The notes beneath the pieces were generated by a model. The model searched no databases and had not been told where the DNA came from. It saw nothing but the letters and a program-made list of their open reading frames with translations. A stretch of DNA of 64,000 nt from Pseudomonas sp. GD03944 (GTDB lineage: Bacteria; Pseudomonadota; Gammaproteobacteria; Pseudomonadales; Pseudomonadaceae), in contig NZ_JAOCAH010000010.1 in assembly GCF_029839275.1 (NCBI RefSeq), positions 124,001 to 188,000 on the forward strand, written 5' to 3'. The position numbers were made by a program, and so were the translations under genes. The first letter of the stretch is position 1; each line of letters starts with the position of its first letter. Of this stretch, positions 53,094-56,646 are shown in pieces.

Positions 53094-55469
53094 TTAGGGG
53101 CGCAGTGTCAGCTGGCTGCGGGTGTGGCGTTGCACATCGTCCTGGTCGAGGTGCATGGGCTGGTACTCGCCGCGCACGTAGGCCTTGGCCTGGTCCTGGT
53201 AGTGCCTGTCGAACGGCACGCCGCTCTGGCCCACGGGGTTGATGCCCAGCGCGGTGCTGGCGTCGTTGAGGTCGATCAGGCGCCGCGTGGATGGACCATA
53301 GACCACCGACCACGGGGCGGGCCCCACCTTGTGCGACAGGTTGTTCGGCGTCTCGTGGCCGCCGGGCACCTCGAACGGGCCGACGTTCAGCACCGTGTCC
53401 AGTGGCTTCTGCTGGCCTAGGGGGTGGCCGTGTACCAGGGTATGGGCCGGGCCCCACTGCCAGGTGGCCGGGTCTTGGCCGAGAGTACTTTGCAGGTGGG
53501 CGATGCTCGTCCGCCAGGCGGCCTTGACGATATCGGCGCGGCTTTCCGTGGCCTCGGTGCCCCGGTCGTTCCACCAGGGCGAGTCGGCGTTGGCGGTGAG
53601 GCGCGGCAGGGCGCTGTCCAGCACGCGGGTGAACAGCAGGCTGTCGAAGAAGCTGTCGCCCAGTTCGTCATGCATGGCCTGGCGGGTCAACTGATAGACC
53701 AGCTGGTTGAACAGGGTGGTGGCGACGGAGTCCACGCGGTGGTCACCGTCCCAGGCCGCCAGTTGCTCGACCAGCGCGCGCTGCTGGTCGTCGCTGGCCG
53801 CGGCGCGCAGTTCGTCGAGGATCGGTGCCAGCACGCGCGGACCGTAGCCGGTGCCGGTGTCGAGCTGCAGGGCCTGGCTGTTCTGCAGGTCCCATTTGAC
53901 GTCCGCATCGGCGAGGTGCTGGTTCAGGCGCTGACCGCGATCGGGCAGGTTGTAGTAGCCGGGGACCTCGATGCCGGTGGGCGACAGGGGCTGGTAGTTG
54001 GCCGAGACGATGTAGCCACGCTGTGGGTTTTCTTCCTGGGGGTTGTCGGTGAAGGGATGATAGCCGTCCTTCTCCGCCTCGCCGCTGGCGCCATCGAGGA
54101 TGAAGCTCGGGTTGACCCCCGCCGGGCGGCGCGGCAGTTTCGCGGCGGCCCACCAGCCGATGTCGCCCTGGGCATTGGCCCAGACCACGTTGAGGCCCGG
54201 GGCCTCGATCTTTTCCACCGCGGTACGGGCCTTGTCCAGACTCTCGGCTTGGTTGAGCTGGTAGAAAGCGTCGAGGATCGGGTTGTCGGTTTCCAGGAAG
54301 GTCCACCACAGGGCGATCGGCGTGCTGCCCGACGGGTTGCCCAGGGTGTCGTTGATCAGCGGGCCGTGGGGCGAGCGGCGCAGGGTCACGGTGACCGGCT
54401 CGGCGCCTTTGACCAGGATGGTTTCCTCGCGCTGCTGCAGGTCGACCCACGCGTCGCGGTGGCGCACTTGGTTGGGGTTGTTCGGGTTGACGGTCTCGGC
54501 GACGAGGTCGACGTCGTCGTTCTGGAACATGGTCAGGCTCCAGGCGAAGTCCCGGTTGTGCCCCAGGGAGGCGGTGGGGTTGAGGGCCTGGTAGTGACCG
54601 TAGAGCTCGAAGCCGGGGTAGCTCACGTGGGCCTCGTACCACACCGCGGGCACGGCGAAGCGGATATGCGGGTCGCCCGCCAGCAGTGGCTTGCCGCTGG
54701 CCGTGCGGCTGCCGGACACCGCCCAGGCGTTGCTGCCCTCGAACTGCGGCAGGCCGGCGTCGAGCAGCGCCTCGTGGCTGATCCGGGCAATGGCGCCGAG
54801 GTCCTTCCAGTCCCCGGCGGCCAGGGGCTGGCCGACCACGCCTTCGGGGTGCCAGTCGAGGTCGAAGACGTCCAGGTACTCGCTGCCCAACTGGTCGCGC
54901 ACGTAGCTGAGCACCGGCTCGGTGCGGAACGCGGCGGCGAAGCTGTAGGCCATGTAGCCGGCCACGCTGAGGGTGTCGGCGGCGGTGAAGGGGCGCGGCT
55001 GGATGCCCAGCAGGTCGAACTCCATCGGCGCCGGACGGCTGGCCTGGTACTGGTTGATACCGTCCAGGTAGGCCTGCAGGGCCACGGTCGCCGGGCTGTT
55101 CGGGTCGAGTTTCGCGGCGTAGGCATCGGCGTGCTGGCGGATACCCAGGGTGCGGAACAGGCGGTCGGTTTCCAGCAGCGGGGCGCCGAGCACTTCGGCC
55201 AGTTCACCCCGGGCCAGGCGGCGCATCATTTCCATCTGGAACAGGCGGTCCTGAGCGTGCACGAAGCCCAGGGCACGGTACATGTCGGTTTCGTTCTGCG
55301 CCTGGATGTGCGGTACGCCCCGTTCGTCGTAGCGCACCTCGACCGGCGCCTGCAGGTGCTGCAGCGTCAGCTCGCCCTCGCGCAGGGGCTGCTTGCTGTC
55401 GACGTACCAGTAGCCGCCGGCGGCGCTGGCGGCCACGACGACGGCGATGACGGTCAGGGTGCGTTTCAT
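53094..55469 (-). CDS. Penicillin/AHL-acylase family Ntn hydrolase
   Basis: 791 aa. An N-terminal signal or anchor (residues ~4-22) leads to the alpha subunit; the autocatalytic cleavage site is at EG|SNAW, so Ser246 becomes the N-terminal nucleophile of the beta subunit. VHAQDRLFQMEMMRRLARGE is the family's helical motif. Size and layout match the periplasmic AHL acylases PvdQ, QuiP and especially HacB (PA0305). It should cleave an amide bond in an N-acyl compound. Whether the substrate is an acyl-homoserine lactone, an N-acyl amino acid or a lipopeptide cannot be told. Confidence 0.88.
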   Translation of the reverse strand: MKRTLTVIAVVVAASAAGGYWYVDSKQPLREGELTLQHLQAPVEVRYDERGVPHIQAQNETDMYRALGFVHAQDRLFQMEMMRRLARGELAEVLGAPLLETDRLFRTLGIRQHADAYAAKLDPNSPATVALQAYLDGINQYQASRPAPMEFDLLGIQPRPFTAADTLSVAGYMAYSFAAAFRTEPVLSYVRDQLGSEYLDVFDLDWHPEGVVGQPLAAGDWKDLGAIARISHEALLDAGLPQFEGSNAWAVSGSRTASGKPLLAGDPHIRFAVPAVWYEAHVSYPGFELYGHYQALNPTASLGHNRDFAWSLTMFQNDDVDLVAETVNPNNPNQVRHRDAWVDLQQREETILVKGAEPVTVTLRRSPHGPLINDTLGNPSGSTPIALWWTFLETDNPILDAFYQLNQAESLDKARTAVEKIEAPGLNVVWANAQGDIGWWAAAKLPRRPAGVNPSFILDGASGEAEKDGYHPFTDNPQEENPQRGYIVSANYQPLSPTGIEVPGYYNLPDRGQRLNQHLADADVKWDLQNSQALQLDTGTGYGPRVLAPILDELRAAASDDQQRALVEQLAAWDGDHRVDSVATTLFNQLVYQLTRQAMHDELGDSFFDSLLFTRVLDSALPRLTANADSPWWNDRGTEATESRADIVKAAWRTSIAHLQSTLGQDPATWQWGPAHTLVHGHPLGQQKPLDTVLNVGPFEVPGGHETPNNLSHKVGPAPWSVVYGPSTRRLIDLNDASTALGINPVGQSGVPFDRHYQDQAKAYVRGEYQPMHLDQDDVQRHTRSQLTLRP

Positions 55470-55536
55470 CGGGGGCGATCCTTATTGTTCTGTGATGGGG
55501 CACGGCGCCATTCTGGTCAGGGGAGCGGCTGATGGC

Positions 55537-55575
55537 ATTGACCAAATGGCGCAAGACTGAAAGTCTTTGGTCAAT
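55537..55575. promoter_or_regulatory. Large nested inverted repeat in the acylase/AraC divergent promoter
   Basis: ATTGACCA (55537-55544) pairs with TGGTCAAT (55568-55575), and inside, AAGACT (55553-55558) pairs with AGTCTT (55562-55567). All arms are perfect; only the left side has an 8-nt insert. It lies 16 nt before the AraC start and ~68 nt before the acylase start. A related TCTGGTCAGG is at 55512-55521. Likely the operator of the AraC protein. Confidence 0.6.
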
Positions 55576-55590
55576 TGTCACGAGGTAATC

Positions 55591-56646
55591 ATGGATACCG
55601 CACCCAGTCAGACTGTTGCCGCGACGCTGACCCATTCCTCCACCCTGCGCCGCCTGCTCTACGAGTCCCTGGCGGCCCTGGGCCTGGACCCGACCGATAC
55701 CTACCGCCGGGCCTATCAGGGCGTGCCGCTGTCGCCGCCGCGCCTGGTGGCCCGGGAGGAGCACGACAACGCACCGCGGTTCTGGCAGGCCCTGGAAGGC
55801 ATCAGCGGCGACGTCGACATCGGCCTGCACCTGGGCGAGGTGATGAGGCCGCGGCCCATGGACGTGGTGGGCTACCTGCTGTTGGCCAGCGCCGACCTGC
55901 GCCAGGCGCTGGAATGCTTCGTGCGGTTCCAGCACATCCTGTCCGGCGGTTTCGTCGCGCGCCTGGAGGACCGGGGCGACCGGGCACACCTGATCATCGA
56001 CCTCAATTACCGCGGGGTAGGCTCGCTGCGCCAGCAGATGGAGTGCCTGGCGCTGCTGATCTTCAAGATGCTGGCCAGCGTCACCGACGAAGATTTCCAA
56101 CTGGTGGGCGTGGACTTCCGTCACCCGGCGCCGCGTCGCCTCAGCGAGCATCGGCGCCTGTTCGGCCTGCTGCCGCGTTTCGGCCAGCGGCATGATGCCC
56201 TGGTGTTCGAGCAGGGCCTGCTGACTCGTCCGTCGCGCAGCGCCAACCCGCGCCTGTTCACCCTGCTATGGGCCGAGGCCGAGCAGGAGCTGGCCGAACT
56301 GGTGGAGAACCAGTTGCTCAACCGGGTGCGCTACTGGTTGGGGGTGAACCTGGGCGTTCAGCTGTGCAGCCTGGCCGAGTGCGCGCGGGCCCTGGACCTG
56401 ACCAGCAGCGGCCTGCAGCGGGCGCTGGCCGAGCAGGGCAGCAGCTTTCGCCTGCTGCATGATGAGGCGCGCCGTGGCCGCGCCGCCGATCTGCTGGAGG
56501 CCGGCCAGGCCATTCGTGACGTGGCGCGCGCCTGCGGGTTCGCCGAGCTGTCGCCGTTCTACCGGGCGTTCCGCCGCTGGCAGGGCACCACGCCGGAAAC
56601 GTACCGCGCCCAGTGGCTGGCGTCTCAGGCGGGCTGTAGCCGGTAG
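55591..56646 (+). CDS. AraC-family transcriptional regulator (OruR/Arabinose_bd type)
   Basis: 351 aa from the ATG at 55591, preceded by ACGAGG; an in-frame TTG at 55567 lies inside the inverted repeat. The N-terminal domain (residues ~20-230) resembles the PF12625 domain of OruR-like regulators. The C-terminal double HTH includes [20 protein letters not shown] and [20 protein letters not shown]. It is divergent from the acylase-M20 operon and likely controls it. Its 3' end overlaps the convergent chemoreceptor gene by 22 nt. Confidence 0.87.

Follow-up and report, generated by a model that had tools for sequence, protein, structure and literature searches.

The window, a stretch of 64,000 nucleotides from Pseudomonas sp. 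GD03944, contains an acylase gene and an AraC-type regulator gene that diverge from a gap of 121 bp, which runs from the acylase start at 55469 (minus strand) to the AraC ATG at 55591 (plus strand).

53094-55469, minus strand: HacB-like acylase gene of the penicillin-amidase (Ntn) fold, 791 aa, the presumed regulated gene
55591-56646, plus strand: AraC-type regulator gene, 351 aa, with PF12625 (Arabinose_bd) and PF12833 (HTH_18) domains, the presumed binder of the dyad described below

The regulator belongs to the Arabinose_bd (PF12625) subgroup of the AraC/XylS family. Both of its domains, which include the two-helix-turn-helix DNA-binding part, exceeded their cut-offs (PF12625, 119.3 bits against 27.6; PF12833, 57.4 bits against 33.6), and it matched none of the characterised equivalogs QhpR, GliR and CypR (best score 165.8 bits, for NF049968, with a cut-off of 250). 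The acylase, a putative hydrolase of acylhomoserine lactones, matched PF01804 over its full length (residues 42-780, E 1.6e-219) and fell below the cut-off of the PvdQ equivalog (64 bits against 950). PA0305 (HacB) of Pseudomonas aeruginosa has been reported to hydrolyse acylhomoserine lactones as an acylase (PMC5474475). The inducer of such a system is not obvious, because hacB expression in P. aeruginosa was unchanged with C10-HSL as carbon source (PMC5474475).

The gap contains a perfect inverted repeat, referred to here as the outer dyad.

55537-55546, no strand: left arm, ATTGACCAAA, a perfect 10-bp arm
55566-55575, no strand: right arm, TTTGGTCAAT, a perfect 10-bp arm at the predicted AraC transcription start

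The arms are exact reverse complements, separated by 19 bp and 29 bp apart from start to start. A preliminary description, made from the sequence alone, had reported two nested inverted repeats in this gap, and all of the arms that it named are present. It was right that the outer arms are perfect, but it gave them 8 bp where the perfect match spans 10 bp; the 8 extra bases that it saw on the left are there when the arms are taken as 8 bp. Among 5000 dinucleotide-shuffled versions of the gap, 11 had a perfect 10-bp inverted repeat (p ~0.002). The pattern TTGACCA-N10..40-TGGTCAA has a single match in the window, and 100 shuffles gave no match. The outer repeat is thus above chance. Across the window (1-64000), we also counted 29 perfect inverted repeats of 10 bp (spacer 3-40 nt), against 7.4 in dinucleotide shuffles; this roughly fourfold excess perhaps reflects terminators. 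Because such repeats are commoner window-wide than in shuffles, the case for the outer repeat rests on its conservation.

In an initial comparison of 13 loci, that of the window and those of relatives, the divergent gene pair and the arms were kept throughout. We then scanned public genomes and fetched 80 loci with orthologous regulators (57-81% identity). The acylase lay divergently upstream of the AraC gene at 80/80, and the arms CATTGA...GTCA were found at the identical 29-bp start-to-start spacing, with zero indels, at 80/80. In an alignment of 81 sequences (the 80 fetched loci and the window), CATTGAC at the left arm was invariant in 81/81, GTCA of the right arm was present in 81/81 and GGTCA in 80/81. 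On a tree of the 81 regulators the core columns (0-5 in the left arm, 33-36 in the right arm) underwent 0 changes, as compared with 10-25 changes in most spacer columns. The dyads at L105, L106 and L192 (genome G423) have a degenerate left arm (ATTGACATTA) and an intact right arm, a natural variant that could show which arm matters.

Outside the arms, conservation in the 81-locus alignment was one-sided, a pattern that two overlapping promoters would give. Two mirror pairs in the flanks, 8/30 and 12/26, showed a raw association (z 3.7 and 4.9), and we considered such covariation as proof of dyad recognition. We rejected it, since the association vanished when changes were counted on the 81-tip tree, where no complementary co-changes at mirrored flank positions were found. 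The raw signal therefore reflects shared ancestry, and beyond the matching cores coevolution lends no support to the idea that one protein reads both arms.

A second, shorter inverted repeat lies between the outer arms.

55553-55567, no strand: inner repeat AAGACT-GAA-AGTCTT, left arm 55553-55558, right arm 55562-55567

The right inner arm shares two bases with the right outer arm. A 6-bp inverted repeat with a 3-8 nt loop appeared in 230 of 2000 shuffles of the gap (p ~0.12), and the inner repeat was complete in 1 of 81 loci, the window itself. Its left arm, AAGACT, varies freely, and its right half coincides with the AraC gene's extended -10, which is conserved. We therefore rejected the inner repeat as a functional unit; AAGACT/AGTCTT is, judging by the alignment, a chance overlay on the predicted AraC -10. 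Comparison of orthologous regions, the check put forward in the preliminary description, thus bore out the outer arms (80/80) and not the inner left arm, and the 'nested double' design that it had proposed did not survive, the whole inner repeat being confined to the window.

From the alignment we predicted one promoter for each gene.

55538-55543, plus strand: predicted AraC -35, TTGACC, inside the left arm
55558-55566, plus strand: predicted AraC extended -10, TGAAAGTCT (consensus TGnAAnTnT), 17 bp after TTGACC and conserved on the right half only
55533-55538, minus strand: predicted acylase -35, ATGCCA, with its complement GGC (55534-55536) showing conservation only on the left
55510-55515, minus strand: predicted acylase -10, CAGAAT (CAnAAT in orthologs), at a fixed distance from the left arm

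The 17 bp between the AraC boxes is the spacing of a sigma-70 promoter. With these boxes, AraC transcription is predicted to start near 55573, inside the right arm, and acylase transcription near 55503. At 55534-55536 the three bases GGC were conserved in 64 (G), 69 (G) and 81 (C) of the 81 loci, and ATTnTGC, which begins at 55510, was likewise conserved on the left side only, at a fixed distance from the arm. Two base pairs of the left arm also fall within the predicted acylase -35. The two acylase boxes, ATGCCA and CAGAAT, are 17 bp apart, and the -35 is poor relative to the consensus. A generic promoter scan returned no sigma-70 site at its threshold, and the predicted boxes are weak.

We surveyed 399 genomes of the genus, counting the regulator as present at E <= 1e-80. 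The regulator was found in 44 genomes and an extended dyad pattern in 45, with both together in 43. All 44 regulator genomes contained the dyad; the one outside the pattern list was G423, whose copy (L192) has the degenerate left arm. Two genomes had the pattern without the regulator (G261 and G403, at L122 and L141). We took these matches as chance, as they are mismatched and have neither an AraC nor an acylase gene nearby. The acylase is far commoner than the regulator (364/399 genomes). We inspected the regions upstream of 32 acylase genes, and the dyad was absent from all 31 of those that lacked the regulator (0/31), among them the genes of the close relatives G316 and G060 and one of the two acylase copies of G334. 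Since the dyad tracks the regulator and is absent at regulator-less acylases, it belongs to the regulator gene and not to the acylase itself. A genome that loses the AraC gene would lose that gene's promoter as well, however, so co-loss alone cannot name the binding protein.

Several individual loci touch on the same subject. The acylases at L175 (G316) and L176 (G060) are 80% identical to that of the window, as close as any, and have no AraC gene and no dyad, which suggests that regulator and operator were lost together in these two genomes. G334 encodes two HacB-like acylases (C1:4497859-4500234 and L185, C1:6469200-6472200), of which one is accompanied by both the AraC gene and the dyad and the other (67% identical to the window's) by neither. 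The acylase/AraC pair was also present on records labelled as P. aeruginosa plasmids, NZ_CP083369.1 (9835-13274) and NZ_CP045917.1 (208477-211916), with 97% coverage and 74% identity; these are possibly mobile copies or mislabelled pieces of chromosome. We found no second genomic copy of the dyad tied to another gene. The loose pattern TTGACC-N14..30-GGTCAA occurred at 8 places in the same genome, against 22 for a reversed control, and so no regulon was seen. Among 17 distant relatives of the regulator, 2 had an 8-bp inverted repeat upstream, and no common sequence was seen.

The best overall explanation of these observations, and in our judgement a probable one, is that the outer dyad serves as the operator of the adjacent AraC-type regulator within a compact back-to-back promoter. 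The putative binder is very probably the AraC protein itself, whose second helix-turn-helix is nearly invariant among orthologs, as would fit an invariant site. Two regulator subunits, oriented as mirror images and spaced by about 29 bp, would occupy the arms ATTGACC and GGTCAAt. The left-arm subunit would cover the AraC -35 and the right-arm subunit the AraC start point; relative to the acylase promoter, the bound protein would be centred at about -39, by the acylase -35, and at about -68. Binding of an effector to the N-terminal domain of the regulator may then activate the acylase. Because the left arm overlaps both -35 boxes and the right arm lies at the AraC start, bound AraC is predicted to repress its own gene, which we regard as likely, and to activate the acylase, towards which the same positions incline us slightly. 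The -35 region of a promoter is where many activators contact RNA polymerase. More tentatively, one mirror-symmetric AraC site might double as the operator and the -35 element of two promoters that face opposite ways, such that a single binding event would turn the acylase on and the regulator off. The preliminary description had pointed out that a single protein at this site could influence both promoters, and the position of the outer dyad agrees with this.

The main alternative is that dyad-bound AraC keeps both genes repressed and that an inducer lifts this by releasing or repositioning the protein. The overlap of the left arm with both predicted -35 boxes would suit such dual repression, but AraC family members are mostly activators and a poor acylase -35 suits an activator, and we consider this outcome rather unlikely. 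Less likely again is that a different regulator encoded elsewhere, for example of the TetR, GntR or LysR type, binds the dyad and controls the AraC gene while AraC acts at other sites. Dyad symmetry is typical of dimeric repressors, AraC sites are mostly direct repeats and AraC is tied to the site by co-occurrence only. Against this, the full pattern is confined to the acylase/AraC pair, with a single copy in each genome, and a single-target regulator that is always lost with the AraC gene is a less simple assumption than autoregulation.

The left arm could be simply a -35 box whose symmetry with the right arm is coincidental, given that TTGACC is near consensus and lies 17 bp from a conserved extended -10, and that the mirrored flanks do not co-change. 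We find this very improbable, because the right block GGTCAA is nearly invariant where no promoter element is expected and is reverse-complementary to the left block at every base, a coincidence that we estimate at ~0.5% even with ~20 offsets allowed. The least probable explanation is that the repeat acts as a DNA cruciform or as a stem in the AraC leader RNA, an idea raised in the preliminary description. Although the transcribed strand can fold into a stem of -23 kcal/mol, this fold is only 1.4 s.d. below that of shuffled sequences (z -1.4; 14 of 200 shuffles were equally good), the inner stem is not conserved and no compensatory changes were seen on the tree. Moreover, with the predicted AraC promoter located within the dyad, the mRNA should begin in the right arm and would not include the left arm.

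AraC-family sites being mostly direct repeats, the dyad is more symmetric than most of them, as the preliminary description had held of usual AraC sites. This contrast does not extend to the RhaS and RhaR sites, which are inverted: RhaR of E. coli recognises a pair of inverted 17-bp half-sites separated by 17 bp, and RhaS binds another inverted repeat (PMC3870299). The window's dyad resembles these in pairing an AraC-family regulator with two half-sites in an inverted repeat, here conserved with the regulator and predicted to be bound by it. It differs in the regulator subfamily (PF12625), in sequence, in its closer spacing (29 bp from start to start) and in the fusion of two promoters to one dyad. 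We did not find the RhaR-type arrangement of 17-bp half-sites with a ~17-bp spacer, and such half-sites would here leave 5 bp. As in araC/araBAD-type regions, regulator and target are divergent and one binding region can serve both promoters. In the classical araI case, however, the half-sites are direct repeats and a loop is formed with a distant site, whereas in the window both promoters are overlapped by one inverted pair. The closest parallel in P. aeruginosa is the PA7 locus L108, which we take to be the PA0305/PA0306 locus; it has the same gene pair (acylase 69% and regulator 59% identical) and the same dyad.

Given that inverted AraC-type sites are known from RhaS/RhaR, the putative operator is new in detail and ordinary in kind, and it is apparently undescribed. 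In the open-access literature we found no account of regulation of the HacB locus by the neighbouring AraC gene; searches on PA0306/AraC, QhpR/AraC and palindromic autoregulated AraC regulators of Pseudomonas gave nothing useful, the sole text match to PA0306 being PA0306a in a heat-shock table.

A HacB-type acylase is a possible brake on acylhomoserine lactone signalling, and its control is undescribed in the open literature that we searched. The dyad supplies a candidate regulator, an exact putative operator and predicted promoters, which makes this control testable in many Pseudomonas species and offers a handle on the control of a quorum-quenching-type acylase. If the proposed single-site arrangement is true, it would constitute a minimal bidirectional switch for acyl-signal turnover in P. 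aeruginosa, P. oleovorans, P. anguilliseptica and related lineages.
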